Shown here in pieces: positions 10,218 through 25,349 of a stretch of DNA of 64,000 nt. Positions within the stretch are counted from its first letter, which is position 1. Every line of letters starts with the position of its first letter. The notes under the pieces were generated by a model. The model was given only the letters and a program-made list of their open reading frames with translations, searched no databases and was not told the origin of the DNA. A program made the translations under genes and the position numbers. This stretch comes from Amycolatopsis alkalitolerans (lineage in GTDB: Bacteria > Actinomycetota > Actinomycetes > Mycobacteriales > Pseudonocardiaceae): assembly GCF_006152065.1 (NCBI RefSeq), contig NZ_VDFW01000011.1, positions 1-64,000 of the forward strand, written 5' to 3'.

Positions 10218-11666
10218 ATGGAGGACTTGAGAACCTGGGTGGACCAGATGAGCTCCCGCGATATCGTCCGCGATGTTCTGGAAGCCGATCCGCACCTGGA
10301 GATCGGTGCCATCACGGATCTCAATGCGAAGAACCACAAATGGGTGCTTCTCTTCGACCGGATCAAGGGGTACGAGCCGGGGTTCCGGATACTGACCGGC
10401 TCACTGCTGGACGCCGAGCGGGTCGGCTACAGCCTCGGTTGCGAGCCGGGCGGCGGCAGCCAGCACCTCGTCCGGCAGTTGCGCTCCCGTCTGCGGCACC
10501 CGGCCGCCACCGATGTCGTGGGCCGCGCCCGCGATGACCAGAGCGCTCCGCTGTTCCAGAACCAGATGCGCGGCAGCGACGTCGACCTGTCGAAGTTCCC
10601 GGCGCCGCTGTGGCACGAGCACGACGGCGGGAACTACCTCGGTACCTTCGACGCCGTCGTGACCCGCGACCCCGAGACGGGCTGGGTCAATGTCGGCACC
10701 TACCGCATGATGCGTTACGACTCCCGGCGCCTGTGCCTGTTCGTCAATTCCAGCCACCACGCGCGGCTGCATATGGAGAAGTACCGGCGTCGCGGCGAAC
10801 GCGTTCCGGTCGCCGTCTCGCTCGGTCATCATCCGGCACTGTCCGCGCTCGGCGGGATGGAACTGCCCGCCGGCACGTCGGAATACGACGTCTTCGACCA
10901 GTTGCGCGGCGACCTGGATCTGGTGACGCTGCCCATCACGAAGCTGCCGGTCCCGGCGACGAGCGAGATCGTCGCCGAGGGCTATCTGTCCGAGGAGGTC
11001 GTCTTCGACGGGCCCTACGGGGAATTCCTCGGCTACTACGCCGGCGGCAAGATGCCGACACCCACGCTCGACGTGGAAGCGGTCTACTACCGGGACGAGC
11101 CGATCATTCTCGGCACCTGCGCCGGGATTCCGCCCTATGACTATTCCTATTTCCGTTGTCCCATGCGGTCGGCGATGATCTGGGACGCGCTGGAAGAAGC
11201 CGGTGTACCGAACGTCACCGGTGTGTGGTGCCACGAGGCCGGCTATACCCGGGCGCTCAACGTCGTCTCCATCGACCAGGCCTATCTCGGTCACGCCCAG
11301 CAAGCCGGCATGGTGGCTTCCCAGGTGCGGGAGGGCGCCTTCGGCGGCAAGTACACGATCGTCGTCGACGACGACATCGATCCGGGCAACCTCGACGAGG
11401 TGATGTGGGCGCTCACCACCCGGACCGATCCGGTGGACGCCATCGAGTTCATCCGCCATTCCTGGGGTATGGCACTGGATCCCATGGTCGAGCGGGCGCC
11501 GGACGAGTCATTGGGCGCACTGTCGATGTCCCGGGCCGTCATCATCGCCTGCCAGCCGTACGGGCGCCGGGCACAAGGTACGTTCCCCGCTCCGGTTACG
11601 GTCCGGCAGGACGTGGCCGCTCGGGTCATGCGGCAGTTCCCTCAGGTTTTCCCTAGCAAGAGTTAG
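10218..11666 (+). CDS. UbiD-family (de)carboxylase 1
   Basis: 482 residues, usual UbiD length. UbiD enzymes use prenylated FMN made by UbiX to reversibly decarboxylate unsaturated or aromatic acids. Visible are the prFMN-binding segment around N-V-G-T-Y-R and the Glu-containing motif E-I-V-A-E-G-Y-L followed by G-P-Y-G-E-F, which supplies the conserved acid/Arg network. ATG at 10218 follows AAAGGGA. It is the first gene after promoter 9982-10010 and is followed by the transporter after 157 bp. A UbiX gene is on the convergent transcript. Substrate unknown. Confidence 0.9.
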   Translation: MEDLRTWVDQMSSRDIVRDVLEADPHLEIGAITDLNAKNHKWVLLFDRIKGYEPGFRILTGSLLDAERVGYSLGCEPGGGSQHLVRQLRSRLRHPAATDVVGRARDDQSAPLFQNQMRGSDVDLSKFPAPLWHEHDGGNYLGTFDAVVTRDPETGWVNVGTYRMMRYDSRRLCLFVNSSHHARLHMEKYRRRGERVPVAVSLGHHPALSALGGMELPAGTSEYDVFDQLRGDLDLVTLPITKLPVPATSEIVAEGYLSEEVVFDGPYGEFLGYYAGGKMPTPTLDVEAVYYRDEPIILGTCAGIPPYDYSYFRCPMRSAMIWDALEEAGVPNVTGVWCHEAGYTRALNVVSIDQAYLGHAQQAGMVASQVREGAFGGKYTIVVDDDIDPGNLDEVMWALTTRTDPVDAIEFIRHSWGMALDPMVERAPDESLGALSMSRAVIIACQPYGRRAQGTFPAPVTVRQDVAARVMRQFPQVFPSKS

Positions 11667-11823
11667 GGAACGGCGAAAAGTCTGACCAAGCGAACCGGCG
11701 GGATGGCCTGTCAGACCTGGTTCCCGCGTTATCGGCAAAGTCCCCACCTCAACCCGGGCGCGGCGACGATCGTCAATGTCGACACCGTGCTCCGGCCGGA
11801 TTGTGCAGTGGCAGGAGAACACC

Positions 11824-13257
11824 ATGACCGCAGTCGATCTTTCCCGCCCCGCGACGACCACCTCACCGGATTCCAGGACGCCACTGAACACCGGCCTGCG
11901 CTGGGCGGCCGGAATAACGGTGGGACTCGTCGTATGGTTCATCCACATACCCGACCTGAATGTGCGCCAGGAGCACGGCGCGGCACTGATCCTGGCGACG
12001 ATCGTGTTGTGGCTGCTCAGGGCGGCACCCCAGGGCGTCGTCGCGTTGCTCTTCGTCGTCACGGCCATCCTCTCGGGGGTTTCCGACGGCGAAACGCTGC
12101 TGAGGCCCTCCTGGACCTCCTCACAGATCTGGTTTGTCTTCGCGTCGTTCGGTTTCGGCTACATGATCGCCGACACCAGCCTCGGCGAGCGCCTGACGAG
12201 CAGGCTGCTCCGGTATTTCTCCCGGTCGTTCTGGTCGTTCGGGCTCTTCGCGATCGTCTCCGGCACGGTTTTCTCCGTCATCGGAATGGCCGGGGACTTC
12301 GCCAGGGTCGGCATCCTCTACCCGGTCATCGCGGCCGCCGGGGCGACCATGAAAGGGCTTCGCCGGGAAGCCAGCACCAGGGCGATGGCCATGATGATCC
12401 TCGGGGTCGGCCAGCCGACCCTGATGTATGTGTTCAACGGTTTCTGGTTGAACCAGACGTTCCTCGGCCTGGCCCAGGAAAAGTTGAGCTACGTGGGCTG
12501 GTTCACCCATTTCATGGTTCCTTCGCTGGCCGTCTCGGTACTCGGCCTCATCGCGATCAGAATCCTGTTCGCGGCGGATATCAAGATCCCGGCGGATATC
12601 AGCCGGAGCAAGCTCGAGAGTCTGGGACGGCTGACCCCAGCGGAATGGCGCACCATGGGCTTCATCGGTCTCGCCATCGCGTTGTGGCTCACGAGTTCCT
12701 GGACCGGGCTGGACGCCGGGTGGATCGCGTTGAGCGTGTTCGTGCTCATGTTGCTGCCCGGCATCGGCGTGATGAACTTCCAGGACTTCACCCGCCGGAT
12801 GAACTGGAACATCATTTTCTTCCTGACCGGCGCCTTCGCCTTGGGCGCACTGATCAAGGAGCTTCACCTCGCCCCGATCGTCGAGCATTGGCTGGTTCCC
12901 AGCCAGCTGCCGAACAACCCGTTCGTGCTCGGCATCGTGGCCAGCCTGCTGTCGATGCTCATCCACCTGTTCACCGGCGACGCGGCGTCGGCGATGGCGG
13001 TGACGGTCCCGGTGTTCCATCATGCGGCGGTCATGTACGGGCTGAACCCGCTGGTGTACGGGTTCGTCGCCTACATGAGCATCTTCTCGCAGTACTTCTT
13101 CCTCTATCAGGCGGCCGGTGTCCTGTTCGCCTATGGCTACGGGTTGTTCACCCAGAAAGACATCTTCAAGTTCGGGCTGGCTTCCGTGATCACCACCTCG
13201 CTGGGGCTCGGCGTCGTCGGCGTCTTCTACTGGCAGGTGACGGGAATGCTGCACTGA
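11824..13257 (+). CDS. DASS/SLC13-type anion transporter
   Basis: 477 residues, strongly hydrophobic with about 11-12 membrane segments and two related halves, as in divalent-anion:Na+ symporters (citrate, succinate and dicarboxylate carriers). Start ATG follows AGGAG. Located between two UbiD genes, it most likely imports the carboxylic acid that the operon degrades; this is inferred from position and family. The stop is 37 bp from UbiD2, consistent with one transcript. Confidence 0.82.
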   Translation: MTAVDLSRPATTTSPDSRTPLNTGLRWAAGITVGLVVWFIHIPDLNVRQEHGAALILATIVLWLLRAAPQGVVALLFVVTAILSGVSDGETLLRPSWTSSQIWFVFASFGFGYMIADTSLGERLTSRLLRYFSRSFWSFGLFAIVSGTVFSVIGMAGDFARVGILYPVIAAAGATMKGLRREASTRAMAMMILGVGQPTLMYVFNGFWLNQTFLGLAQEKLSYVGWFTHFMVPSLAVSVLGLIAIRILFAADIKIPADISRSKLESLGRLTPAEWRTMGFIGLAIALWLTSSWTGLDAGWIALSVFVLMLLPGIGVMNFQDFTRRMNWNIIFFLTGAFALGALIKELHLAPIVEHWLVPSQLPNNPFVLGIVASLLSMLIHLFTGDAASAMAVTVPVFHHAAVMYGLNPLVYGFVAYMSIFSQYFFLYQAAGVLFAYGYGLFTQKDIFKFGLASVITTSLGLGVVGVFYWQVTGMLH

Positions 13258-13294
13258 CAACGCCTTCGGCTCTCATCGCGACGAGAGGAAACAG

Positions 13295-14899
13295 ATGACC
13301 AGCTATCCGGATCTCCATGAGCATGTGCGCCGGCTGGAGGAAGCCGGGTTGCTCATTCGGGTACACCGCCCCATCGACAAGAACACCGAACTCCACCCGT
13401 TGGTGCGGTGGCAGTTCTGCGGGGGCGTTCCGCCGGAGCAGCGCAAGGCGTTCTTGTTCGAGAACGTGGTCGACGGAAACGGGCGCCGGTACGACATACC
13501 CGTCCTGGTGGGCGCGCTCGCCTCCAACCGGGAGATCTATGCGCTGTCCATGGGTTGCCCGCTGGACGAGGTGACGCCGACCTGGGCCCGCGCCATGGGC
13601 AACCCCATCGAACCCCAGGTGGTGTCCGACGCGCCGTGCCAGGAGATCGTGGTCGAAGGCGGGGAACTGAACACGAACGGCCTGGACGCGCTGCCGGTGC
13701 CGATCTCGACGCCAGGGTGGGACAACGCGCCCTACCTCACCAGCGGTCACTACCTCACCCGCGATCCGGAGACCGGGGTACAGAACTCGGGCAACTACCG
13801 GGGGCAGATCAAGAGTCCGACCTGCGTCGGCATGAACGCTTCGCACGAACTCAACCAGGGAATCACGGTGCACTGGAACAAGGCCCGCGCCCTCGGCCAG
13901 AAGTTGCCATGTGCGATCGTCGTCGGCGCGCCCCCGTGCGTGACGCTCACCGCGGTGCAGAAGGTCCCGATGGGATTGGACGAACTGGCGGTGGCCGGCG
14001 GTCTCGTGGGATCCCCGCTGCGGGTCGCCAAGGCCCGCACGGTCGACGTCCTGGTGCCGGCCGAAGCCGAGATCGTGATCGAGGGCTACATCGACACCGA
14101 GTTCCTCGAGCCGGAGGCGCCGTTCGGCGAGTCACACGGTCATGTGAACCTGCAGGAATACAACGCCTTCATGGACGTCACCGCCATCACCCGCCGCCGG
14201 GACGCCATCTTCACCTCGATCCTGAGCCAGGTGACCCCGAGCGAGTCGAGCCTGATCAAGCGCATCGCCTACGAGGAACGGTTTCTCACCACGCTGCACG
14301 AGATCGGCATCCACGGCCTCAAACGTGTCTTCCTGCACGAGCCACTGACCAACATCCGCAAGTTCGTCGTGCTGGTGTTCGAGAACGGCGCCGAAGAGAC
14401 CAACGTGTGGCGGGCGATGTACGCCGCGAGTTCGCTGCAGAACGCGGTGGGCAAGTTCACCATCGCGGTGAACGAGGACATCGACCCGGAGAACACGGAC
14501 GCCATTCTGTGGGCGCTGGCCTACCGCATGGACCCGCGCCGGGACATGCAGGTGGTGGAACACCGTTCGTGGGGGCACGGCCCGGCCGGGCCGGTGAACG
14601 ACGGGCAGGACGCGGCCATCCTGCTGGACGCCACCCTCAAGCAGCCGTACCCGCCGATCTCGCTGCCGAAGCGGGAGTACATGGAGCGCGCTCGCACGAT
14701 CTGGGAGGAGCTGGGGCTGCCGGCCCTGGAACCGCGGGCGCCCTGGTTCGGCTACTCCCTGGGCGACTGGAGCGACGAGTTCGAGCAGGAGGCACAGCTC
14801 GCGGTCCGGGGCGAGTTCTGGAGCACGGCCGAAAAGCACGCCGCCCACCGCCGGAGCGACGTTCCGATGAACACGCCGGTTCGGTCGTCCGACGACTGA
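13295..14899 (+). CDS. UbiD-family (de)carboxylase 2
   Basis: 534 residues. The family features are N-S-G-N-Y-R in the prFMN/substrate region, E-A-E-I-V-I-E-G-Y-I and then E-A-P-F-G-E-S, i.e. the standard Glu-x-x-x-Glu plus P-F-G-E arrangement. It is about 50 residues longer than UbiD1 and clearly not a recent duplicate of it. A good ribosome site (GAGAGGAAA) precedes ATG. Together with UbiD1 and UbiD3 it makes three paralogues in one regulon with a single UbiX, suggesting successive decarboxylations, different isomers or a heteromeric complex. Confidence 0.9.
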   Translation: MTSYPDLHEHVRRLEEAGLLIRVHRPIDKNTELHPLVRWQFCGGVPPEQRKAFLFENVVDGNGRRYDIPVLVGALASNREIYALSMGCPLDEVTPTWARAMGNPIEPQVVSDAPCQEIVVEGGELNTNGLDALPVPISTPGWDNAPYLTSGHYLTRDPETGVQNSGNYRGQIKSPTCVGMNASHELNQGITVHWNKARALGQKLPCAIVVGAPPCVTLTAVQKVPMGLDELAVAGGLVGSPLRVAKARTVDVLVPAEAEIVIEGYIDTEFLEPEAPFGESHGHVNLQEYNAFMDVTAITRRRDAIFTSILSQVTPSESSLIKRIAYEERFLTTLHEIGIHGLKRVFLHEPLTNIRKFVVLVFENGAEETNVWRAMYAASSLQNAVGKFTIAVNEDIDPENTDAILWALAYRMDPRRDMQVVEHRSWGHGPAGPVNDGQDAAILLDATLKQPYPPISLPKREYMERARTIWEELGLPALEPRAPWFGYSLGDWSDEFEQEAQLAVRGEFWSTAEKHAAHRRSDVPMNTPVRSSDD

Positions 14900-14924
14900 G
14901 CCGCGCCGATCCCGGAGGCAGAAC

Positions 14925-15749
14925 GTGCCGAAAGTACGAGTCAATGGCGTGGACCTTTCCTACGAGGTGCGGGGGAGCGGCCCACCGGTCGTGCTCGTCG
15001 CCGGCACCGGATACCCGGGGGCGTCCTGGCCGGCCCGCTTCCTGGACGCGCTCAGCCGGGCGCATCGGGTCTTGACCTTCGACCACCGGGGTACCGGAGC
15101 AAGCCAGGACAGCGACGGCCCTTACTCGACCCGGATGCTGGCCGAGGACGCGCTGGGCCTTGTGGACCGGGTGTTCGGCACGTCGGCGGACGTGGTCGGG
15201 CATTCCATGGGCGGCCGGGTCGCCCAGTGGATGGCACTCGATGCCCCGGCCTCGGTGCGGTCCCTGGTATTGGCCGCGACCGGCGCCGGCCCGTTGCCGG
15301 GGACATCCCGGCACGAAACCGGGCTTCCTCCGGCCACCGTCGAGCGCATGGTGGAGGCGGGATACGAGCGGTTCATCCGGGACTCGCAGCGGAACCACTT
15401 CTTCACGGATTCCTTCGCCGGGCAACGGCCCGAGGAAGTCGACCGGCTGTTCTCGTCCTGGTGGTCGCACCGTCCTTCCCTTCGCTGCTACCTCAAACAT
15501 GTTCTCGCCCGCCAGCAACACGACACCGTGGCCCGGCTGACCGATATCAGGCAGCCGGCGCTGGTCCTGGTCGGCGAGGCGGACACCGCGCTCATGGGCA
15601 CCTATTCCCACCTGGAGCAGTCGCACTACCTGGCCACCGCACTGCCCCGCGCCACGCTCAAGGTGCTTCCGGGACTGAAACACGGGCTGTTCTGGGAAGC
15701 ACCGCGCGAATCGGCCCGCGCGGTGATGTCGTGGCTGGAGCACCGTTGA
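14925..15749 (+). CDS. alpha/beta hydrolase
   Basis: 274 residues. Classic alpha/beta hydrolase with oxyanion region near V-L-V-A-G-T-G, nucleophile elbow G-H-S94-M-G-G, a D in L-V-G-E-A-D and the late catalytic His in L-K-H-G-L-F-W. Such enzymes in aromatic pathways cleave C-C bonds of ring-fission products, esters or enol-lactones. GTG start 25 bp after UbiD2; its stop overlaps the TTG start of the amidohydrolase, so it belongs to the plus-strand operon. Substrate not predictable. Confidence 0.85.
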   Translation: MPKVRVNGVDLSYEVRGSGPPVVLVAGTGYPGASWPARFLDALSRAHRVLTFDHRGTGASQDSDGPYSTRMLAEDALGLVDRVFGTSADVVGHSMGGRVAQWMALDAPASVRSLVLAATGAGPLPGTSRHETGLPPATVERMVEAGYERFIRDSQRNHFFTDSFAGQRPEEVDRLFSSWWSHRPSLRCYLKHVLARQQHDTVARLTDIRQPALVLVGEADTALMGTYSHLEQSHYLATALPRATLKVLPGLKHGLFWEAPRESARAVMSWLEHR

Positions 15750-17488
15750 TCCCCGGTCCGGTCAGCGCCGCCGAGGCGGCCGATCTCGTTGCCGTCGCCA
15801 CCCGGCGCGCACCGGCGGATCTGGTGATCCGGCGGGGCACGATCGTGAACGTCTACTCCGAGGAGCTCTCGGTCGGGGACGTCGCGGTGAAGGGCGGGCG
15901 GATCGCGGCCGTCGGAACGGACCTCGACGTCCAGGGCGACCGGACCGAGGTGATCGAGGCCGAAGGAAGGTACGTGCTGCCGGGCTACCTCGAGCCACAC
16001 TGCCATCCCTGGGCCCTGTACAACCCGGACACGCTCGCCCGTGCCGTCCTGCCCCTCGGCAACACCGCCCTGGTGGGCGAGCTGCTCAACCTGCAGCTCA
16101 CGGCCGAGCCCGACGCGATCCTCGCCGTCTACGAACAGCTCCAGCGCAGCCCGATGCGCTGGTACTGGGCGGTGCGGGTGGCCGGGCAGAGCAACGAGGG
16201 GCTCGACCGGCACTTCCCGCTCGCGGCGGTGGAGAAGCTGCTCGCCGCGCCCGGTGTCGTGCAGATCGCGGAGGTGACCGCGTGGCCCCGGGTGCTGGCC
16301 GGCGACGCCGATCTGCTCCGCCGGACCGCGCTCGCACAGGAGCACGGGGTGCGACTGGACGGGCACACCGCCGGTGCGACCGCGTCCAAGGTGGCGGCGA
16401 TCGCGGCCGCCGGGTTCAGCGCCGACCACGAGTCGATCACCTACGACGAGGCGCTCACCCGGCTGCGGCTCGGGTACCACGTCATCCTGCGCAACAGTTC
16501 GCTACGGCCCGATCTGGACGCGCTGGTCGAGCTGGCGCGCGAAGGGCGAGGCACCGCCCGGATCTCCCTGACCTCGGACGGCTCCGGCCCGCTGTGGTTA
16601 CGTGAGCACGGCATGGTGGACAGCTTGGTCCGGACGCTGGTGCGGGCCGGCGTGCCGGTCCCGCGCGCGGTGGCGATGGCGACCCTGAATCCGGCGACCT
16701 ACCTGCGGATCGACGAGCACCTTGGCGGGATCGCCCCCGGTCGGTGCGCCGACATCCAGGTGCTGAGCGGGTTCGACGGGCCGCCGCCCGAGACCGTCGT
16801 GGTCGGTGGCCGGGTGGTGGCCTCGGCCGGGCGCCTGACCGGGCAGTGGCCCGCGTGGCGATGGGCGGATCATCTTGAGCGCGACCACCAGGTCGACCTC
16901 GACCGGCTTGGTGACCCGGCCACGTACGACTCGCCGTGCCGGCCCGGCGAGCGGGTCCCGCTCATGAGGTTCGTCTCCGCCGGTATCGCCCGGCACGCCA
17001 CCGAGACCACCGGCGCCGACGGCCGGCCGGGAGACGCCGTACTCGCCGTGCTGTTCACCCGGGACGGGCGGCGGCGCGCCTGGGCCTGGCTCGACCACTT
17101 CGCCCCCCGGCTGGACGGCCTGGCGACCAGCTACACGACTTCGGGGCACTTCCTGGTCATCGGCCGCAACCCCCGCTCCATGGCGGTGGCGGCCCGGGCG
17201 GCGTTCGCCGGCGGCGGTGGCATCGCGGTCGCCACCGGCACCACCGTCACCGCCCGCCTGGAGCTGGACATCGTCGGCGCCATGTCGTCGCGTCCGATGG
17301 ACGAGCTGGCCGAGCAGTGGGCGGCGGTGGAGGAACACGTGAAGCGGGCGGGTTACCCGTTCGCCGAACTGCTGTACTGCCTGTGCTTCATCACCTGCGA
17401 CTTCCTGCCCGACCTCCGGCTCACTGCCGACGGCCTGCTCGAGGTCAAGACCGGCCGCATTCTCGTACCGGCCGAGCCGCTCAGCTGA
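15746..17488 (+). CDS. adenine-deaminase-like amidohydrolase
   Basis: 580 residues, size and layout of adenine deaminase: N-terminal A-D-L-V-I-R-R-G-T-I-V-N-V, metal motif P-H-C-H-P near residue 85, further His in D-G-H-T-A-G and A-D-H-E, an Asp in S-D-G-S, and the C-terminal adenine-deaminase domain. The usual I-D-x-H-x-H is E-P-H-C-H here. The likely start is TTG at 15746, overlapping the previous stop and preceded by GGAG at 5 nt; GTG at 15731 is an alternative. It is last in the operon and overlaps the convergent MaoC gene by 8 bp. In this setting it may hydrolyse a cyclic C-N bond or deaminate a heteroaromatic; that is inference. Confidence 0.8.
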   Translation: MIPGPVSAAEAADLVAVATRRAPADLVIRRGTIVNVYSEELSVGDVAVKGGRIAAVGTDLDVQGDRTEVIEAEGRYVLPGYLEPHCHPWALYNPDTLARAVLPLGNTALVGELLNLQLTAEPDAILAVYEQLQRSPMRWYWAVRVAGQSNEGLDRHFPLAAVEKLLAAPGVVQIAEVTAWPRVLAGDADLLRRTALAQEHGVRLDGHTAGATASKVAAIAAAGFSADHESITYDEALTRLRLGYHVILRNSSLRPDLDALVELAREGRGTARISLTSDGSGPLWLREHGMVDSLVRTLVRAGVPVPRAVAMATLNPATYLRIDEHLGGIAPGRCADIQVLSGFDGPPPETVVVGGRVVASAGRLTGQWPAWRWADHLERDHQVDLDRLGDPATYDSPCRPGERVPLMRFVSAGIARHATETTGADGRPGDAVLAVLFTRDGRRRAWAWLDHFAPRLDGLATSYTTSGHFLVIGRNPRSMAVAARAAFAGGGGIAVATGTTVTARLELDIVGAMSSRPMDELAEQWAAVEEHVKRAGYPFAELLYCLCFITCDFLPDLRLTADGLLEVKTGRILVPAEPLS

Positions 17489-17942: not shown

Positions 17943-17951
17943 CCCGTCCCG

Positions 17952-18590
17952 TCAGCTGCCTTCCCGGAACCGGCGGAAGTCCTGGGCCCGGCGCGCGGCG
18001 CGCTTGCTCCCTCCCCACCGTTCCACCACCCCGGTATCGAACCCGAACAGGTCGAGCGTCCGCCCCACCGTCTGGTTGACGATGTCGTCGACCGTCTTCG
18101 GGTGGTGGTAGAAGGCCGGGACCGGGGGCACCACGATCGCGCCCGCGGAGGTGACCTCGCTCATCAGCCGCAGGTGCAACGCGTGCAGCGGGGTTTCGCG
18201 CACCAGCAGCGCCAGCCGCCGGCGCTCTTTCAGCACGACGTCGGCCGCCCGCACCACCAGGTTGTCGTCGTAGCAGTTGGCGATCCCGGACAGGGTCTTG
18301 ATGCTGCACGGAGCGATGATCATGCCCTCGGTCCGGAAGGAACCGCTCGAGATCGCCGCCGCCAGGTCGTCCTCGCGATAGGTCACCGCGGCACTCGACG
18401 CGATGCTGTCGGGGTCGATCGCGGTCTCGTAGGCCAGCGTCCGGCGGGCCCCGGCCGTGATGACCAGATGGGTCTCGACCTCCGGCAGGTCGCCGAGCAT
18501 CTCGACGAGGCGGGCGCCGTACACCGCACCGGAGGCGCCGGTGATGGCGACGATGATGCGGCGCGGAGAGGCCGGGCAGGGCGCGGTCAC
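17952..18590 (-). CDS. ubiX: UbiX-type flavin prenyltransferase
   Basis: 212 residues. It begins R-R-I-I-V-A-I-T-G-A-S-G-A-V-Y-G, the UbiX FMN-binding start, and has A-P-C-S-I-K-T-L-S-G-I-A, R-E-T-P-L-H and P-P-V-P-A-F-Y, all family marks. UbiX attaches dimethylallyl phosphate to FMN to give prFMN, the cofactor of UbiD. GTG overlaps the UbiD3 stop (GTGA), so the two are coupled. It is the only UbiX in the window and probably serves all three UbiD proteins. Confidence 0.92.
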   Translation of the reverse strand: MTAPCPASPRRIIVAITGASGAVYGARLVEMLGDLPEVETHLVITAGARRTLAYETAIDPDSIASSAAVTYREDDLAAAISSGSFRTEGMIIAPCSIKTLSGIANCYDDNLVVRAADVVLKERRRLALLVRETPLHALHLRLMSEVTSAGAIVVPPVPAFYHHPKTVDDIVNQTVGRTLDLFGFDTGVVERWGGSKRAARRAQDFRRFREGS

Positions 18591-20131
18591 TGGCCGGACT
18601 GCGCCAGCAGCCGGATCCAGCCCCGCTGTTCCCGGGTGAGCCGGTCGACGACGTCCTGGTCGAACCACTGGCGCAGATCGACCTGTTCGACGGCGTAGCG
18701 GGGCCGGGCGAACTGGCTGGCCGTGCCGTACGGGATGGTCGCGTCGATGGCCATCCCGCCTTCGAACCCGGTCGCCGAGCCCAGTCGTCCCCCCGAGGCT
18801 CGCTCGCTCGGCTGGAACGCCTGGCCGGCGCCGCCCGGCACCGGGACGATGATGTCGTTGTTGGGGTCCACCCGGGTGGTCAACGCCCACAGCACGTCGT
18901 CGCTGCTGTAGATGTCGATGTCCTCGTCGACCGCGATGGCGATCCGCATTCCCCGGGAACTGGCCAGCGCGGCCACGAGTACGTTGCGCTGGTAGCCCTC
19001 GTCGACCTTGCTGCGCTTGTCGATCTGGAAAACGGCGCCGCCCCAGTCGGTCATCGCGAACGGGATGTGCACGTCGCGGACCAGGCCCGGCATGATCCGG
19101 TTGCCCAGCTCGTACAGGGCGGCGGTCCGGACGCTGGTCTGGATGTTGTTCTCCTCGGCACCGTGCACGATCATCGGCTGGATGAGCGGCCGGCTGTCGA
19201 GCGCGCGGTGGGTGACGGCGGTGACCTGGAAGGTCGGCGCGCGGTAGGCCTTGCCCATATAGCCTGCCCACTCCGGGTGGAACGGGTGCTCGCCCTGTTG
19301 ACCGGTCTCTTCCGCCTTGCCGGTCTCGAAGCGCCGGTCGGTCGGGTCGAGGTAGCCCTCGATGACGTACTCGGCGTTGGCGACCGCCCACGCGTCGGGC
19401 ACCGACACCGCGGGGACCAGGTCGACGGCCGATCCCTGCAGCGCCCCCGCGATCCCGAGCTCGTCGCAGCCGTAGGGCAGCACCAGGTAGTCGAAGCCGG
19501 CCCCGGCCGCCAGGGTGACCGCCGGTGGCAGGCCGAAGTTGATGGTCAGCGGGATCCGCTCCCGGCCGTAGTTCTCCGCCGAGGCCATCCACATGTGGCT
19601 GCCCGGCGCGATCTGGAAGGTGCCGGTCTCACCCCAGCGGAAGTTCTGCCGGTTGTAGCCGATGTGGCTGCCGCCCCCGAAGAACCGCCCGGCCAGCAGC
19701 GTGACACCGCTGCCGAGGGTGGCCTCTTCCTCCTCCAGGGTGTGCCGGATCGGCGTCACGTACCGGATCGGGTTGAGGTTGCCGGTCTGCACGACTTCCT
19801 GGGCCGGTGCCTGGTCGCGGGTGAGGATGCGGGGCGGGATCGGCTTCCGGAGCGCGTCGGCGATGCGCCGCGTCTTCTCGGTCGCGTTTTCGAAACCGAA
19901 GAGCCGGTTGACGATGTCGGTCTGGGCGAACAGGTTCATCACGAACCGGGCATGGTCGTAGCCTTTGATCTGCTCGAAGAGGACCGGTGGGCCGCCGTCC
20001 ATCCGTTTCTGCACCGCCGCGAACTCCACGTCCGGGTCGATCGGCTCGGACGTGGTCACCAGCAGCTCGTGGCCGGCCAGGCCCTCGAGCGTCGAGCGCA
20101 GGCTGGAGATGTCGATCGGGCGGTCAGTCAT
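18587..20131 (-). CDS. UbiD-family (de)carboxylase 3, divergent active-site region
   Basis: 514 residues. UbiD family with Y-V-I-E-G-Y-L-D in the middle, but the G-P-F/Y-G-E block that normally follows is replaced by an insertion of roughly 25 residues ending in F-H-P-E-W-A-G-Y-M-G. The other regions (F-G-G-G-S-H-I-G-Y, N-F-G-L-P-P-A-V) are conserved enough to call the family. Directly coupled to UbiX downstream and overlapping the ligase by 8 bp upstream, which hints that it may act on a CoA ester or on the acid just before activation. Confidence 0.87.
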   Translation of the reverse strand: MTDRPIDISSLRSTLEGLAGHELLVTTSEPIDPDVEFAAVQKRMDGGPPVLFEQIKGYDHARFVMNLFAQTDIVNRLFGFENATEKTRRIADALRKPIPPRILTRDQAPAQEVVQTGNLNPIRYVTPIRHTLEEEEATLGSGVTLLAGRFFGGGSHIGYNRQNFRWGETGTFQIAPGSHMWMASAENYGRERIPLTINFGLPPAVTLAAGAGFDYLVLPYGCDELGIAGALQGSAVDLVPAVSVPDAWAVANAEYVIEGYLDPTDRRFETGKAEETGQQGEHPFHPEWAGYMGKAYRAPTFQVTAVTHRALDSRPLIQPMIVHGAEENNIQTSVRTAALYELGNRIMPGLVRDVHIPFAMTDWGGAVFQIDKRSKVDEGYQRNVLVAALASSRGMRIAIAVDEDIDIYSSDDVLWALTTRVDPNNDIIVPVPGGAGQAFQPSERASGGRLGSATGFEGGMAIDATIPYGTASQFARPRYAVEQVDLRQWFDQDVVDRLTREQRGWIRLLAQSGQ

Positions 20132-21698
20132 GCGCTGTCTCCGGCTCGGGCTTCCGCACCGCGGCGTAGCGTTCGGTCAATTTGGCTCTCGGAACCGACT
20201 GGGTCGGCGTCTTCGGCAGCTCGTCGGTGAAAAAGATCTGCTTGGGGATCTCGTAGCGCGCCAGCTTGCCGCCCGAGCTGCAGAACTCCAGCAGCTCGGT
20301 GGGGGTGACCGAGCTGGCCACCCTGACCACCACCGCGACACACACCTGCTGTCCCCACCGTTCGTGTGGCAGGGGGAACGCCGCCGCTTCCACCACGTCC
20401 GGGTGCGCGGAAACGACGTTCTCGACGGTCCGCGGGCTGACGTTCTCGCCGCCGCTGATGATGATCTCGTCGCGGCGCCGGAGGTGGCGGGCGTGCCCGT
20501 TCTCGATCTGGACGATGTCACCGCTGATGTACCAGCCGTCCTCGGTGAACGACTGGGCCGTGCGCTCGGGCATGTTGAGGTAGCCCGCGAACACCGAGTC
20601 CCCCCTGACCTGAAGCTCGCCTTCGCCTTCCTGCCTGACCTCGCCGGTGACGACATCGATCAGCCGGAACTGGGTCTGGTTGTACAGCGGCGACCCGCAC
20701 GAGCCCGCGATGTGGGCGGGCAGTTCCTCACGCGGTTCGTAGGCGCCGGGCCGCCCGACCTTGTCGACGAAGATGATGCCCGCTTCGGTCATCCCCAACC
20801 GCTCACAAAGGACGAACGAGTAGCGGTCGAGCACCTTCTGGTAGGCCCGGGCCGGCATGGGAGCTCCGCCCGCGATCACCTGCCGCAGGCTGCCGAGGTC
20901 GAACCGCTCCGGGTGCGGATAGTCGGCGATGTCGACCACCATCGAACCGGCGATGTAGGCGGAGTCGGGCCGGTAGCGGTCGACGAGCCGGAAGAAGGCG
21001 TCCTTCTGCCACCGCAACGAGATCACGCTGCCCCCGGCGGCGAGCACCGGCAACGACGACGACTCGAGTCCGGACGTGTGGTAGACGGGCCCCGCGCACA
21101 GCCACCGGCTGGCGGGGCTCAGCTTCCAGGCATGGACCAGGTTGGACACGTGGGCGCCGATGTTGCGGTGCGTCTTCATCACCCCCTTCGGGGTGCCGGT
21201 CGTGCCGCTGGTGTAGGTGATGTTGAACAGGTCGTGGTCGTCCTTGGGGGCGGACTCGATGTAGTGGGGATAGCCGGCCACGATGTCGGCGAGCGCGGTC
21301 ACCCCGTCGCCGGACGGTCCGTCCAGGGTGACGAGGTGACGCACCTCGGTGCCCTGGATCGCGGCCCGGGCGGCCGGCAGGTCCTTGTCCGCCACCACGA
21401 GCACGTCGGCCGAGGAGTCCCGCAGTACGTAGCGGAGCGTCTGCTCGCCGAACATGTAGTTCGCCGCGACGCTCTCCGCGCCCGCTTTCAGCGTGCCGAA
21501 CTCGGCGATGTAGAACTCGTAACAGTTGGTCAGGTAGGTGGCCACGCGGGTGGCCGAACGCTCGCGCACCCAATGCGCGAAAGCAGCGGCGGACCGGTTC
21601 AGCTCGTCGTAGGTCCGGGCCTGGTCGTTGTGGATGATCGCGATCTCACGACCGCGATGATGCACCTGGTTCTCGAACTCATAGATCCAGTTGGACAC
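20124..21698 (-). CDS. AMP-forming acyl-CoA ligase (ANL superfamily)
   Basis: 524 residues. Core motif Y-T-S-G-T-T-G-T-P-K-G near residue 170, then Y-H-T-S-G, L-G-M-T-E and S-G-E/D-I-V late. The C-terminal motif that commonly reads P-K-T-x-T-G-K is P-K-T-P-T-Q-S-V-P-R-A-K, a variant also seen in some CaiC-like ligases. Makes the CoA thioester that PaaABC-type oxygenases need. GTG start at 21698 has a strong GAGGAGA site; the open frame upstream to 21875 is out of the gene. Overlaps UbiD3 by 8 bp. Confidence 0.88.
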   Translation of the reverse strand: MSNWIYEFENQVHHRGREIAIIHNDQARTYDELNRSAAAFAHWVRERSATRVATYLTNCYEFYIAEFGTLKAGAESVAANYMFGEQTLRYVLRDSSADVLVVADKDLPAARAAIQGTEVRHLVTLDGPSGDGVTALADIVAGYPHYIESAPKDDHDLFNITYTSGTTGTPKGVMKTHRNIGAHVSNLVHAWKLSPASRWLCAGPVYHTSGLESSSLPVLAAGGSVISLRWQKDAFFRLVDRYRPDSAYIAGSMVVDIADYPHPERFDLGSLRQVIAGGAPMPARAYQKVLDRYSFVLCERLGMTEAGIIFVDKVGRPGAYEPREELPAHIAGSCGSPLYNQTQFRLIDVVTGEVRQEGEGELQVRGDSVFAGYLNMPERTAQSFTEDGWYISGDIVQIENGHARHLRRRDEIIISGGENVSPRTVENVVSAHPDVVEAAAFPLPHERWGQQVCVAVVVRVASSVTPTELLEFCSSGGKLARYEIPKQIFFTDELPKTPTQSVPRAKLTERYAAVRKPEPETAHD

Positions 21699-21715
21699 CG
21701 TCGGATCTCCTCGAG

Positions 21716-22510
21716 TCAGCGGCCGATGAACTTCGCGGGGCGCTTCTCCCGCAAGGCGTTGATCCCCTCCTGATGGTCGTGCGTCAGGTTGGACTTGGCT
21801 TCGAGCGAGAGCGACAGCTCCATGTTCGAGGCGACCAGTGCTCGCAGCGGCGCGTTGACCGCCTGCTTGGTCCACTGGATCGCCCGGATGGCGCCGGCGG
21901 CGAGCTGATCGGCGAAGGCGTCGACGGTGGCGTCCAGCTCGTCGTGCGGCACACAGCGATTGATCAGCCCCATGTCGGCGGCCCGGGTCGCCGGAATGAA
22001 CTCACCGGTGTAGAGGTACTCGCGGGCGCGGGCGAAACCGATGAGGTAGGGCCAGATGGCGCTTCCACCGTCACCGGCGACCAGCCCGATCTTGACGTGC
22101 GGGTCGCCGATCCGGGCCTTGTCCGAGGCGAAGATGACGTCACAGAACAGCGCCAGCGTGGCGCCGAGGCCGGCCGCCACCCCGTTCAGCTTGGCGATGA
22201 CGGGCTGGCGGCATTCGAGGATCCCGTTCATCGTCCGGCGGTTCTCCTCGCTCAGCTTCTCCCAGCCGAGCGGGTCCTGAATCAGCGTGTCGAGCCAATC
22301 CGCGTCGCCACCGGCGCAGAATGCCCGCCCGGTGCCGGTCAGCACGGCCACGTCGATCTCGCGGTCGCGGTTCAACTCGTCGAAGACGCGCGACAGTTCC
22401 TCGTGCAGCACGCCGTCGATGGCGTTCAGCTTTTCGGGCCGGTTGAGCGCGATGGTCAGCACCCGATCGCGACGGCTGATCTGCAACGATTCGTAATCCT
22501 GGTAGTTCAC
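21716..22510 (-). CDS. enoyl-CoA hydratase/isomerase-family protein (crotonase fold)
   Basis: 264 residues. Crotonase fold with N-R-P-E-K-L-N-A-I-D and oxyanion-hole G-x-G segments. The two Glu of classical hydratases (in G-G-G-C-E and Q-P-E) are Thr and His here (G-L-G-A-T, D-P-H), followed by V-A-G-D-G-G; this points to an isomerase, hydrolase or other crotonase chemistry, such as the epoxide-to-oxepin isomerisation done by PaaG. GTG start overlaps the stop of the small zinc-ribbon gene by 4 bp. Confidence 0.85.
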   Translation of the reverse strand: MNYQDYESLQISRRDRVLTIALNRPEKLNAIDGVLHEELSRVFDELNRDREIDVAVLTGTGRAFCAGGDADWLDTLIQDPLGWEKLSEENRRTMNGILECRQPVIAKLNGVAAGLGATLALFCDVIFASDKARIGDPHVKIGLVAGDGGSAIWPYLIGFARAREYLYTGEFIPATRAADMGLINRCVPHDELDATVDAFADQLAAGAIRAIQWTKQAVNAPLRALVASNMELSLSLEAKSNLTHDHQEGINALREKRPAKFIGR

Positions 22511-22731
22511 GTTTCCTCCGTCATTATCGGAATCGGCGGTAGCCGGTGCGACCATTTGACCCAGTTGAACAAGGAGCGGCACCGCAGGCACTGGAACAAC
22601 ACCTCGGAGGCACTGCTCCCGAAGAGAGAGACGACTTCGATTTCCGCCGTGTCACAGTCGGGGCAGGTGACCCCCGCGAATTCCGAATCCGCTGGGAACA
22701 GTAATCGGTCAGGTGGTCGTTCGCCGCTCAT
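22507..22731 (-). CDS. PaaD C-terminal zinc-ribbon as a stand-alone protein
   Basis: 74 residues. C23-P-D-C26 and C48-L-R-C51 enclose S-L-F-G-S-S-A-S-E-V-L-F, matching the C-terminal ribbon of PaaD (which has S-x-F-G-S-T-A-C-K-A-L-Y and a final C-x-x-C-R). In ordinary PaaD this ribbon is joined to the DUF59 domain; here the DUF59 part is a separate gene at 23860-24177. PaaD is thought to help assemble the iron centre of the phenylacetyl-CoA epoxidase. Coupled to the crotonase gene by a 4-bp overlap. A VdcD-like role is less likely because the S-L-F-G core is PaaD-like. Confidence 0.78.
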   Translation of the reverse strand: MSGERPPDRLLFPADSEFAGVTCPDCDTAEIEVVSLFGSSASEVLFQCLRCRSLFNWVKWSHRLPPIPIMTEET

Positions 22732-22773
22732 CAGCTTCTTTCCGTTCTCGCCCGCGCTGCCGGGCGGCCGTGG

Positions 22774-23547
22774 TCAACGCGCCAGTTCGGCGTCCTTGAA
22801 ACGGATCACCTCGAACAACCGAGCCGGCAGGGAACCGGTTCGGCGAGCCCGCGGCCGCCATTCCGGCGGAAAGTCCGGGCCGGGCAAGGTCGCCAGGTCG
22901 ATGCCGAGCGGAGTCACCGACCGCTGCACCTCGTCGGCAAGTCCGGCGCGTATGTCGCCGATTCCCGGATCCCGCCAGCCGGCGGCGGCCAGCCGGTCGA
23001 CCGGCTCGGCGGGGCCGAACCACCGCAATGCCAACGGCCAGCGGAGCGACAACGCCTCACGCGCACGTCCCCGGTCGTCGTCCGCCCCGTTCAGGATGCG
23101 CAACCAGCCCGAGGCGTACTTCAGGTGGAAGTATGCTTCTTCCCCTATCTTCCGGGCGATTCCCGCGATGGTCCGGTCCGGGCTGCGCAGGAAGCCGGAC
23201 GCCATGGACCACGACGCCTGCTCGGCGAGCCAGATCGAGATGATGAAGTCCGGCCAGTCTCGGGGCGGTTCGTCGAGGAGGTCCATCGAGCGGATCTCGC
23301 CCGCCGCCCGGCCCTTTTCCAGGTGACCGTACGAGTGGTCGAGGAGGTCGAGGTACCGGTAGATGGCCCGAGTTTGGCCGTAGGAAGCCGTGCACATGCC
23401 GAGCATCGCGGCAAAGTCGGGGAGTGACTTGCCGTTCATCACGCATTCGGCGAACCAGTTACCGAGAACCAGCTTCGTGTCCGCCAGGCACAGCAACTCG
23501 TCCTGCACCGGCTCGCGAACTTCGGCGTCGATTTTGTCAGACGTCAC
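22774..23547 (-). CDS. paaC: PaaC-like structural subunit of a CoA-ester epoxidase
   Basis: 257 residues, helical ferritin-like protein of the PaaC type (L-A-D-T-K-L-V-L-G-N-W near residue 20, Y-F-H-L-K-Y-A-S-G-W-L near 120). In the phenylacetyl-CoA epoxidase PaaC is the non-catalytic partner of PaaA. GTG at 23547 follows GGAAGGTGG; the longer frame to 23658 has no support. It lies between the PaaB gene (26 bp) and the zinc-ribbon gene (42 bp). Confidence 0.87.
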   Translation of the reverse strand: MTSDKIDAEVREPVQDELLCLADTKLVLGNWFAECVMNGKSLPDFAAMLGMCTASYGQTRAIYRYLDLLDHSYGHLEKGRAAGEIRSMDLLDEPPRDWPDFIISIWLAEQASWSMASGFLRSPDRTIAGIARKIGEEAYFHLKYASGWLRILNGADDDRGRAREALSLRWPLALRWFGPAEPVDRLAAAGWRDPGIGDIRAGLADEVQRSVTPLGIDLATLPGPDFPPEWRPRARRTGSLPARLFEVIRFKDAELAR

Positions 23548-23573
23548 GCGTGTCCACCTTCCACGATTGTCCG

Positions 23574-23846
23574 TCAGGCCATCTTGATTCTGGTGGAGTG
23601 ATTTCCGAGCCGAACTGGGATAATCATGTCGGTCGGCACGACGCACATCTCGCGCCATTTGTGCTGATCGTAGATGTACCAGGCTCGTACCTGCGCGAGG
23701 TCGTCGTTCGGCGCCTCGACGGACCCCACGTGCGCGAGTTCGTCATCCGAGGTCTTTCTGGCGAACACCTCGTAGTAGCGGGGCGTCGTACCGCCGCGTT
23801 CTCGTTGCGGGTCGAACGTCTTCTTGCGTGCCATCCGCTCGTCCAT
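23574..23846 (-). CDS. paaB: PaaB-like subunit
   Basis: 90 residues, same size as PaaB. The family hallmarks are Y-Y-E-V-F-A-R near residue 25, H-V-G-S-V-E-A-P-N-D near 40 and R-A-W-Y-I-Y-D near 55, ending in a V-P motif. PaaB bridges PaaA-PaaC heterodimers. An alternative start is at 23834 (MARKK). Part of the minus-strand oxygenase operon, 13 bp from the DUF59 gene. Confidence 0.87.
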   Translation of the reverse strand: MDERMARKKTFDPQRERGGTTPRYYEVFARKTSDDELAHVGSVEAPNDDLAQVRAWYIYDQHKWREMCVVPTDMIIPVRLGNHSTRIKMA

Positions 23847-23859
23847 CCGGCCACCACTT

Positions 23860-24177
23860 TCAGAGTTGGATTCCGTGTTCGCGCATCAGGGCGCGCGTCT
23901 CGTCGTCGACCGCGCCCCGATCCCAGCGCAGGTGAAACCCGGTGCCCACCTCGACCGAGACCACGCCGGCGAGGGCGAGCAGCCGCTCACGAATCTGCTC
24001 GCCGAGGTAGGAGGTCGCCGGGCAGGCCATGCACGGTATGCACAGTTCGACATACACGTCGCCGCCGTCGACCCGCACGCCGGAGAGCATCCCCATGCCA
24101 CGCAGGCTGGCGGGGACATGTGCGTCGTGGACCGACTCGAGGGCGGCGATCACCTCATCCTTCGTAACCGCGCTCAT
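23860..24177 (-). CDS. paaD: PaaD N-terminal (DUF59/MIP18) part as a stand-alone protein
   Basis: 105 residues, DUF59 fold. L-C-I-P-C-M-A-C-P-A-T-S corresponds to the Y-S-G-C-P-A-T motif of PaaD, with Cys46, Cys49 and Cys52; the end, E-T-R-A-L-M-R-E-H-G-I, corresponds to the end of the PaaD DUF59 domain. The usual zinc-ribbon extension is missing and is encoded 1.1 kb downstream as its own gene. DUF59 proteins act in Fe-S or di-iron cofactor assembly. ATG at 24177 with GGAGTG upstream. Confidence 0.82.
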   Translation of the reverse strand: MSAVTKDEVIAALESVHDAHVPASLRGMGMLSGVRVDGGDVYVELCIPCMACPATSYLGEQIRERLLALAGVVSVEVGTGFHLRWDRGAVDDETRALMREHGIQL

Positions 24178-24204
24178 CGGCGGCACTCCCGTTCGCCTCG
24201 CCGG

Positions 24205-25161
24205 TCACCACAGGTCGGCGCCCCAGGCCTCGTGATGCAGCCGGCTGATCGAGGGCACCTTGTGCCTGCTGCCGGTCTTCCAGATCCGGAACTGCTCGGC
24301 CCAGCTGATCCGCCGGTCGTAGTCCCAGGTGCGCGTCTGCTCGTCGAGGTGAATGGGCGGCTCGTAGTCGAGCACGAAGTGGCCGCTGTCCTCGTCGAAA
24401 TGAGCCGGAACCCGGATGCCGACCGATTCGCTGAACGGCACGACCTGGGAAAGCCACTTCTGGCGCATCTGGTCGTTCGAAGCACCACGAATCTTGTAGG
24501 CCAGCTGGTCGGTGCGCTTCTTCATCTCGTCCGGGACACCGAACCACGCGGCACACAGGGGGAAATAGAAGTCCACCGACTCCTGCACCCGCTCCCGCGA
24601 TCTCTCGTTCAGGTTCCAGAAGAACTTGACCCACCGCTCGCCGTGGGCGACGTGAAAGGTCTCCTCGAAGTTGACCTTGCGCAAGGACCGGGCGAACGGC
24701 GCGAAGGAGCAGTTCTCCTCCAGGTCGACGGTGGTGATGTACCCGGCGCGGTCGCCGTAGCACATGGACACCACGGACTCGATGTAGTCCTCGTGCGGGA
24801 ACTCCAGCATCTGGAACGTGCGCCACTCGTGCGGATCACGCTCGAACAGGAAGTACTGGGTGTCGTACCCGAACTCCTCCAGGAGCCGGTAGATGACCTG
24901 GGCGTGGCCCAGTTCGTCCTGGCACGCGGAGGCGATGGCGATCTTGTCCTCCAGCGTGGGCGCGGTCCTGATCGCCGGCGAGTAGGTGGGCAAGGTGACC
25001 ACTTCCAGGTCGGCCGCGATATGCATCGTGTTGACCAGGACGTCGTGGTACCGAGGTGTCATCTCGGTGGGGTCTTCGAGCTGGTAACCCGCTTTGACGC
25101 GCTCGCGCAGCGCGGCCTCGCGTGGATCGTCGACCACGGGCTGGACTGGCTGGCTGACCAT
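24205..25161 (-). CDS. paaA: PaaA-like catalytic subunit of a di-iron CoA-ester epoxidase
   Basis: 318 residues, length of PaaA. Two E-x-x-H di-iron motifs are visible: D-E-L-G-H-A near residue 85 and E-E-T-F-H-V-A-H-G near 155, with the extra carboxylate in D-L-E-E-N. PaaA epoxidises the aromatic ring of phenylacetyl-CoA; a related reaction on another aryl-CoA is expected here. It is the first gene after the operator-controlled promoter 25255-25283. No PaaE reductase follows. Confidence 0.88.
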   Translation of the reverse strand: MVSQPVQPVVDDPREAALRERVKAGYQLEDPTEMTPRYHDVLVNTMHIAADLEVVTLPTYSPAIRTAPTLEDKIAIASACQDELGHAQVIYRLLEEFGYDTQYFLFERDPHEWRTFQMLEFPHEDYIESVVSMCYGDRAGYITTVDLEENCSFAPFARSLRKVNFEETFHVAHGERWVKFFWNLNERSRERVQESVDFYFPLCAAWFGVPDEMKKRTDQLAYKIRGASNDQMRQKWLSQVVPFSESVGIRVPAHFDEDSGHFVLDYEPPIHLDEQTRTWDYDRRISWAEQFRIWKTGSRHKVPSISRLHHEAWGADLW

Positions 25162-25243
25162 TCGATCTCGCCCTTTCCGTAGGTTGCGGCTCGACAGGGG
25201 TTCCTCTGCGAGGCAGCGCGGCCTTCGACCGGCTCCCATTCGC

Positions 25244-25261
25244 ATACTGACTGGATAGTAT
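25244..25261. promoter_or_regulatory. TetR-type operator, copy 2
   Basis: ATACTGACTGGATAGTAT. Overlaps the -10 of the oxygenase promoter. Same 18-bp layout as copy 1 (17 of 18 positions when copy 1 is reverse-complemented) and shares the half-site ATACTGA with copy 3. Confidence 0.75.
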
Positions 25262-25283
25262 CTTTGTGGAGAGCTGAAGACAA
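25255..25283 (-). promoter_or_regulatory. promoter of the oxygenase-UbiD3-UbiX operon
   Basis: Read on the minus strand: -35 TTGTCT (25278-25283), 17-nt spacer, -10 TACTAT (25255-25260). This is identical in all three respects to the promoter at 9982-10010, which drives the other arm of the cluster. The leader would be about 85-90 nt. Confidence 0.7.
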
Positions 25284-25331
25284 GGTCCGCGTAGAGCGAC
25301 CTGACTACACGGGGCGCCGGGGCACTTCGGT

Positions 25332-25349
25332 ATACTGACTGATCAGTAT
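25332..25349. promoter_or_regulatory. TetR-type operator, copy 3 (autoregulatory)
   Basis: ATACTGACTGATCAGTAT: arms ATACTGA and TCAGTAT are perfect inverted repeats around 4 bp. It sits 34 bp upstream of tetR and overlaps a possible -10 TATACT (25331-25336), so it would give autorepression. Confidence 0.75.

Follow-up and report, generated by a model that had tools for sequence, protein, structure and literature searches.

Which compound is broken down by a gene cluster that combines three decarboxylases of the UbiD family, dependent on prenylated flavin mononucleotide (prFMN), with an enzyme resembling the di-iron epoxidase PaaABC? We addressed this question for a cluster of Amycolatopsis alkalitolerans at positions 10218 to 26015 of a stretch of 64,000 nucleotides (contig NZ_VDFW01000011.1, positions 1 to 64,000; this whole stretch is called the window). 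Two convergent operons meet at 17481-17488, and a gene for a TetR-family regulator diverges from the minus-strand operon. The original prediction, made from the sequence, had read the locus as a single regulon for import of an aromatic or heteroaromatic (poly)carboxylate, prFMN-dependent decarboxylation, activation with coenzyme A (CoA), and ring epoxidation. All the genes that it listed are present at 10218-25161, together with a PaaD-like gene, a split-off PaaD zinc-ribbon gene, and the TetR gene, and the reading is supported in part, for these activities but not for their order. We estimate a probability of about 45% that the cluster encodes a TetR-controlled, O2-dependent pathway for a phthalate-type aromatic polycarboxylate, running via phthaloyl-CoA- and benzoyl-CoA-type esters that would be epoxidized by a PaaABCD-like enzyme. 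That decarboxylation of an ortho-carboxy-aroyl-CoA feeds the Paa-like epoxidase is held more firmly than any substrate.

The decarboxylase with the clearest kinship is UbiD-C (18587-20131, minus strand; 514 amino acids [aa]), which by its sequence is a homologue of phthaloyl-CoA decarboxylase (Pcd). Against the Protein Data Bank, UbiD-C scored 607 bits with solved Pcd (8pmk/8oz5) and 179 bits with the next-best family. It is 51% identical, over 511 aligned positions, to the Pcd encoded on a plasmid of Aromatoleum aromaticum EbN1. The Pcd insertion ending in HPEWAGYMGKAY is also present in UbiD-C, before HPEWAG, as is the catalytic Arg-Glu-Glu. Genes for the flavin prenyltransferase UbiX (17952-18590, minus strand; 212 aa; TIGR00421, 234 bits, cut-off 108.9) and for an AMP-forming acyl-CoA ligase (20124-21698, minus strand; 524 aa; PF00501, 232 bits) share the operon of UbiD-C. 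Since UbiD-C is a Pcd homologue, at least one decarboxylation probably occurs after CoA activation, and the earlier proposal that decarboxylation precedes activation had to be corrected for this enzyme. According to the accessible part of one review, genes for a UbiD-like Pcd and UbiX occur in all known gene clusters for anaerobic phthalate use, and phthaloyl-CoA is highly unstable, with its capture by high levels of Pcd having been proposed (PMC13040137).

The putative epoxidase is encoded at the start of the minus-strand operon by genes for a PaaA-like di-iron subunit (24205-25161; 318 aa; PF05138, 164 bits), a PaaD-like protein (DUF59/PF01883; 23860-24186; 108 aa; 53.5 bits), a PaaB-like subunit (23574-23846; 90 aa; PF06243, 27.4 bits, cut-off 27), a PaaC-like subunit (22774-23577; 267 aa; PF05138, 84 bits), and a stand-alone zinc-ribbon domain of PaaD (22507-22731; 74 aa; PF23451, 41.1 bits, cut-off 27). 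The zinc-ribbon gene has counterparts of 36 to 69% identity in six related loci. With the NCBIfam models, all scores were under the cut-off (PaaA, 105.7 of 280 bits; PaaB, 25.2 of 85; PaaC, 48.5 of 133; PaaD, 41.5 of 108).

A scan of contigs for PaaA-like genes matched 281 stretches, 147 of them relatives, and the best 80 of these 147 were taken as loci. Canonical controls were 11 plasmid loci hand-picked for spread, 10 from the best 40 of 158 records plus one other. A 98-row tree placed the 10 canonical PaaA rows apart from the 88 others with support of 100/99; some branches are long, and the inner joins are unsure. The nearest relatives of the host protein in the tree are actinobacterial. 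We conclude that the Paa-like enzymes form, in this tree, a clade distinct from canonical PaaA. Putative PaaA/B/C/D-type complexes of this kind, which lack both PaaE and the lysine bridge described below, occur in haloarchaea, Thermus, Rubrobacter, Chloroflexota, Pseudomonadota, and Actinomycetota.

A length filter removed 1 of the 120 rows of the residue alignment, in which certain genes appear more than once (L044 equals L138; L142 is the strain's own canonical protein). As far as the accessible text of PMC4498308 goes, six residues are named as di-iron ligands of PaaA. Five of these sites are kept in all 88 Paa-like rows and the sixth, E155, in 87. The lysine bridge (K68 and E49) is replaced in 88 of 88, by A79 and Y60 in the window protein; among canonical rows, K68 is found in 31/31 and E49 in 30/31. 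Residue F108, described as positioning the phenyl ring in PaaA, is Phe at the corresponding position of 68 of the 88 clade rows and Leu in the window protein and 15 other rows. An AlphaFold2 model of the PaaA-like protein (predicted local distance difference test [pLDDT], 91) matched PaaA best (template modeling [TM] score, 0.81/0.85), and its match to BoxB was much poorer (TM score, 0.52 to 0.59/0.36 to 0.41). We therefore rejected a BoxB-type enzyme in the cluster, as the protein is PaaA type by both sequence and model.

The surroundings of the genes differ as well. Near PaaA-like genes, PaaE-like genes of at least 100 bits were found at 0 of 84 loci, compared with 9 of the 11 canonical controls; the 84 include 23 loci shorter than 17 kb and seven haloarchaeal loci with weak PaaE matches of 60 to 66 bits. 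PaaK-like genes occur at 2 of 84 Paa-like and 6 of 11 canonical loci, and the window has no clear PaaK. A canonical paa set lies elsewhere in the host genome, with matches for PaaA, PaaC, PaaE, PaaK, and PaaZ on contig C45. PaaA and BoxB are described, in what is accessible of PMC4498308, as having no cross-reactivity for each other's substrates, so it would be unsurprising if yet another type of ester had its own enzyme. It is possible, although we would stop short of calling it probable, that the clade represents an aroyl-CoA epoxidase of a third kind, next to PaaABCE and BoxAB, acting on benzoyl-CoA-type esters, and that here one regulator couples it to three prFMN-dependent decarboxylases in an O2-dependent phthaloyl-CoA-type pathway for aromatic polycarboxylates. 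As a separate observation, the PaaB-like proteins of the clade, including that at 23574-23846, reach scores under the cut-off of TIGR04031 (labelled rSAM-partnered candidate RiPP), and this model outscores every PaaB model in the window protein and in 4 of 6 other PaaB-like proteins scanned. The two families may be related or confused.

The genes accompanying the clade are consistent with a benzoyl-CoA-type substrate. Benzoate-CoA-ligase-like genes of at least 250 bits were found at 43 of 84 Paa-like loci versus 0 of 11 canonical loci (53 versus 1 at a threshold of at least 150 bits); the ligase queries were taken from four of the counted loci, and without those four the 250-bit count is 39 of 80. 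Seven of 10 hand-picked ligases of the Paa-like clade passed the cut-off of TIGR02262. At related loci of two other genomes, G683:C48 and G685:C8, a benzoate-CoA-ligase-like gene sits between UbiD-C and UbiD-A; the G685 protein reaches 362 of the 375 bits required by TIGR02262, and its G683 counterpart shares 80% identity with it.

Both operons appear to answer to the same regulator. The palindromic consensus ATACTRWYYRRWYAGTAT describes three predicted operators: one upstream of UbiD-A (10004-10021; ATACTATCCGGTCAGTAT, 0 mismatches), one upstream of the PaaA-like gene (25244-25261; ATACTGACTGGATAGTAT), and one upstream of the TetR gene (25332-25349; ATACTGACTGATCAGTAT). The TetR-family regulator (25383-26015, plus strand; 210 aa; PF00440, 53 bits) would bind these sites. 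With up to 3 mismatches allowed, the window contains no match beyond these three (0.09 matches expected), and with up to 2, neither does the whole 6.78-Mb assembly. Since the pattern was derived from these same three sites, its recurrence at matching places elsewhere is the independent and stronger test. An operator immediately precedes the region homologous to TetR in G683 (0 mismatches), G685 (0), and L044 (1), and G683 and G685 have a second copy (1 mismatch) between UbiD-A and transporter genes. L046 has an operator ahead of the PaaA-like gene (1 mismatch), and L045 has a weak one ahead of TetR (3 mismatches). Shuffles of the related stretches, which preserved base content only, gave at most 0.08 expected matches each with up to 3 mismatches. 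The shared operator and its recurrence support a single regulon covering both operons and so bear out the original prediction on this point.

UbiD and Paa-like genes are linked in other genomes also. G683:C48 and G685:C8 keep TetR (65 to 68% identity), PaaA (88 to 89%), PaaD, PaaB, PaaC, the zinc ribbon, the crotonase (86%), the ligase (78 to 81%), UbiD-C (81%), and UbiD-A (75 to 76%). UbiD-B is 83% identical in G683 and 84% in G685, where that copy reaches the end of the stretch and a second copy is 61% identical. UbiX lies within the compared stretch in G685 and on a separate contig in G683. TetR identity across G685, G683, and L044 is 65 to 71%. A second pair of Pcd-like and Paa-like genes, 50% diverged, lies together on C147 of G685. 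L044, L045, and L046 keep PaaA/D/B/C, the zinc ribbon, and TetR; L044 stops inside the ligase gene, and no UbiD match is present within the stretches of these three loci (20.7 kb for L045). G683 and G685 thus bear out the expectation of joint conservation for the three UbiDs, TetR, PaaA/D/B/C, zinc ribbon, crotonase, and ligase; it failed for the DASS carrier and the amidohydrolase, neither of which has a match in the six related stretches compared. In the same six stretches, the alpha/beta hydrolase has one weak match (57 bits, in G683) and the MaoC-like protein a single match (in L046). These four poorly matched genes look like accessory parts.

Among the genomes searched, UbiD-C and the PaaA-like protein are both rare. 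Among 150 genomes of the order of L044, UbiD-C (E value of ≤1e-60) was found in 2, both among the 3 with a PaaA-like gene; the probability of this co-occurrence by chance is 0.0003 on the assumption that genomes are independent, which relatives are not, and that the two draws were identical, as the listed handles suggest. At the same E value, none of 18 further genomes of the genus had UbiD-C, nor, with only the best three candidates per listed genome scored, did any of 393 other genomes of the class. No other PaaA-like protein of comparable identity was found in 298 genomes of the order, the listed matches being 25 to 28% identical. A survey of 72,556 plasmid records gave 390 with a UbiD-C match; among the best 30 of these 390, EbN1 stands at 51% and the next at 31%. 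In a survey of 17 chosen genomes, the 3.9-Mb alphaproteobacterial metagenome assembly G299, to which L045 belongs, had 29 UbiD-C matches with an E value of ≤1e-10, the best at 52%; three are Pcd-like, at 37 to 52% identity. We also considered the UbiDs beside haloarchaeal Paa-like genes as counterparts of those in the window and rejected them, as 17 complete genes match UbiD-A at 107 to 139 bits only.

The other two UbiDs are more difficult to place. UbiD-A (10218-11666, plus strand; 482 aa; PF01977 plus UbiD N/C domains) and UbiD-B (13295-14899, plus strand; 534 aa; TIGR00148, 218 bits, cut-off 244.85) belong to two UbiD subfamilies other than that of UbiD-C, with pairwise identities among the three of 22 to 25%. 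All three keep the catalytic Arg, Glu or Asp, and Glu (Arg, Asp, and Glu in UbiD-A); a motif of catalytic Arg plus acidic residue is described in the accessible portion of PMC5818171. The nearest solved relative of UbiD-A is 7pda, titled phenazine-1-carboxylic acid decarboxylase (283 bits; 32% identity in a structural alignment), and that of UbiD-B is 6h6x, titled HmfF, the furandicarboxylate decarboxylase (only 151 bits). Both are too distant to name a substrate. The predicted structure of UbiD-A is of moderate quality (pLDDT, 72). The host assembly (G000; 6.78 Mb, 84 contigs) has eight UbiD matches, three of them in the cluster, and two UbiX matches, one of them in the cluster.

Further genes complete the operons, for which gene starts are a choice among the listed alternative start codons. 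The plus-strand operon runs from UbiD-A through a DASS-type anion carrier (11824-13257; 477 aa; PF00939, 105.9 bits; TIGR00785, 106.4 bits, below the cut-off of 198.6), UbiD-B, and a PcaD-like alpha/beta hydrolase (14925-15749; 274 aa; PF00561, 82 bits; PcaDC model, 118 bits, cut-off 390) to an adenine-deaminase-like amidohydrolase (15746-17488; 580 aa; 3nqb, 130 bits), with intergenic distances of -4 to 37 bp except for 157 bp ahead of the carrier. The amidohydrolase scores 209.5 bits with TIGR01178 (cut-off, 472.5) and is not identified as an adenine deaminase by this model. The minus-strand operon, with distances of -8 to 42 bp, runs in the order PaaA-, PaaD-, PaaB-, and PaaC-like subunits, zinc ribbon, crotonase (21716-22510; 264 aa; NF005595, 221 bits, cut-off 292; PaaG model, 170 bits, cut-off 345), ligase, UbiD-C, UbiX, and a MaoC-like hydratase (17481-17942; 153 aa; PF01575, 46 bits; TIGR02278, a weak 27 bits, over the C-terminal part of PaaZ).

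In the pathway that we propose, the DASS carrier would bring in the polyanion, and UbiX would supply prFMN to the UbiDs. UbiD-A and UbiD-B may take carboxyl groups off the free acids, after which the AMP-forming ligase would yield an ortho-carboxy-aroyl-CoA (phthaloyl-CoA or a substituted relative). UbiD-C would decarboxylate this ester to a benzoyl-CoA-type thioester, whose ring the PaaA/B/C/D-like di-iron enzyme would epoxidize. Presumptive isomerization and hydration by the crotonase and MaoC-like enzymes would then lead to ring opening. The sequences themselves show which genes are present, that they share an operator, the homology and catalytic residues of UbiD-C, the conserved linkage of the three UbiDs to the Paa-like genes, and the split between the Paa-like clade and PaaA. 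All substrates in this scheme are inferred, as are the sequence of reactions, the source of electrons, and what UbiD-A, UbiD-B, the crotonase, the MaoC-like protein, the alpha/beta hydrolase, and the amidohydrolase do.

Several observations weigh against the proposal. BoxB is encoded in the host genome (C34:116888; 749 bits), so benzoyl-CoA has another outlet, and the substrate of the Paa-like enzyme may differ; G683 and G685 yielded no match to BoxB. The window ligase is of the general AMP-forming type, with TIGR02262 outside the best 25 of 105 families, and matches to benzoate-CoA ligases in the window are limited to this ligase and another at approximately 58.9 to 60.4 kb (at most 135 and 179 bits). 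Among the clade's ligases, two haloarchaeal ones exceed the TIGR02262 cut-off only narrowly, and those scanned from L046, L047, and L055 gave no TIGR02262 match at an E-value limit of 1e-95. A search of the window with two PaaE queries found no match that would point to the electron donor. In the accessible part of the review, Pcd is placed under anaerobic pathways (PMC13040137). In addition, an IclR regulator plus molybdenum (Mo)-hydroxylase module flanks the cluster in G683 and G685 (large subunit, 72 to 80% identical). Together, BoxB, this module, and the kinship of UbiD-A with a phenazine enzyme weaken the plain phthalate/benzoyl-CoA version.

The last two of these points would fit a (poly)carboxylate of a nitrogen heteroaromatic, such as a fused-ring acid or one of the pyridine dicarboxylates, processed by Mo-dependent hydroxylation, decarboxylation by UbiD-A and UbiD-B, CoA activation, UbiD-C, epoxidation, and finally amide hydrolysis by the amidohydrolase and alpha/beta hydrolase. 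The host has its own counterpart of the Mo-hydroxylase module on C45 (large subunit, 72 to 73% identical), approximately 2 kb from another UbiD, an isochorismatase-family gene adjoins UbiD-B in G683 and (42% identical) in G685, and the window has its adenine-deaminase-like amidohydrolase. We nevertheless regard this substrate class as less likely, though a serious alternative: UbiD-C is closest to a phthaloyl-CoA enzyme, benzoate-CoA-ligase-like genes are frequent at related epoxidase loci, the amidohydrolase is not found in the six related stretches, and the Mo-hydroxylase lies outside the cluster. Two adjacent pathways, in which the minus-strand operon serves phthaloyl-CoA-type esters and the plus-strand operon another substrate, with only the regulator and UbiX in common, would account for the convergent arrangement and for the unmatched or weakly matched plus-strand genes (carrier, amidohydrolase, alpha/beta hydrolase). 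The gene order in G683 and G685 makes this unlikely, as UbiD-C, the second ligase, and UbiD-A lie there on one strand, followed by the second operator copy and ABC-type transporter genes that replace DASS, with UbiD-B further on. The substrate-binding protein of that transporter is nearest SsuA_fam (99 bits, below cut-off).

Even less probable is a second phenylacetyl-CoA epoxidase, with the UbiDs converting a carboxylated phenylacetate. The PaaA fold, the di-iron ligands, and the Phe at position 108 in most clade rows agree with it, but the canonical paa set elsewhere in the genome, the loss of the lysine bridge in every row, the lack of PaaE-like genes of at least 100 bits at the 84 loci, and the Leu at position 108 in the window and 15 other rows argue against it. 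Finally, a chance gathering of unrelated genes in a catabolic island would fit the absence of UbiD-C from all 18 other genomes of the genus searched, which marks the cluster as accessory; conservation of the genes and of their operator across G683 and G685 largely refutes this explanation and leaves it barely credible.

The proposed phthaloyl-CoA-type pathway has parts of known kinds, and comparison with known systems shows where the cluster departs from them. EbN1 plasmid 2, which carries an anaerobic phthalate pathway, pairs a Pcd-type UbiD with UbiX, as does the window. It differs in having two CoA-transferase genes beside Pcd instead of an AMP-forming ligase and ABC and TRAP transporters instead of DASS, and no Paa-like match was found in the 29.5-kb stretch compared. 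The same plasmid also encodes a UbiD that is 38% identical to UbiD-A, so the combination, of which the original prediction knew no example, has a partial precedent. Plasmid 2 (L042) has two Pcd genes, at 3823-5406 and 13950-15533, with equal identities and bit scores to UbiD-C, each behind UbiX.

Denitrifiers are said to have an aerobic hybrid phthalate pathway that joins phthaloyl-CoA to the Box pathway. Its likeness to our scheme is Pcd-type decarboxylation followed by O2-dependent aroyl-CoA epoxidation; it would use BoxAB, whereas the coregulated epoxidase here is PaaABCD-like, with BoxB encoded elsewhere. PaaABCE shares with the window the PaaA fold, the six di-iron ligands, and the PaaB/C/D-like partners; the window differs by its missing lysine bridge, by having no PaaE or clear PaaK, by its gene order A-D-B-C, and by the separate zinc-ribbon gene. 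The phenazine-1-carboxylate decarboxylase system PhdA/PhdB/PhdC is the nearest solved relative of UbiD-A, but at low identity. A flavin-reductase-like gene in G685 (L147:9829-10326; PF01613) lies just upstream of UbiX, positioned like PhdC, and has no match in the window. PhdC is a prFMN maturase according to the accessible text of PMC13040415.

Within the open-access literature, which mostly excludes subscription papers, we found neither this gene combination nor a Paa-like clade without PaaE and lysine bridge linked to benzoate-CoA-ligase-like genes. If the proposal is correct, phthaloyl-CoA chemistry, described for anaerobes and for denitrifiers, would also run in an O2-dependent manner with a different epoxidase. 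This would bear on the fate of phthalates and other aromatic polycarboxylates and suggest a role for a wide clade now annotated after phenylacetate, such as paaA_2 on a Thermus plasmid.

Some observations concern the surroundings of these genes. Amidohydrolases near Paa-like genes were considered as proof of a link and set aside as suggestive only, as they occur at 5 of 80 loci and the three scanned were all below the Ade cut-off. The loci are L082, L086, L091, L099, and L103 (Rubrobacter-type, ANGP1), where adenine-deaminase-like amidohydrolases 36 to 43% identical to that of the window lie within approximately 10 kb of Paa-like genes. On C45 of the host genome (233 to 241 kb; L153), a UbiD gene whose product is 40% identical to UbiD-A has molybdenum hydroxylase genes and a gene for an IclR regulator in its vicinity. 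Upstream of the cluster, a 939-aa aminotransferase-type protein is encoded at 5614-8433 (PRK06148/PRK06149 models, below cut-off), beside genes at approximately 2706 to 5534 that resemble 5-oxoprolinase subunits by eye. An extension of the regulon to these upstream genes was set aside, as the operator was not found there. Directly past the TetR gene, at 26575-26868, lies a gene resembling those for Phd-family antitoxins.

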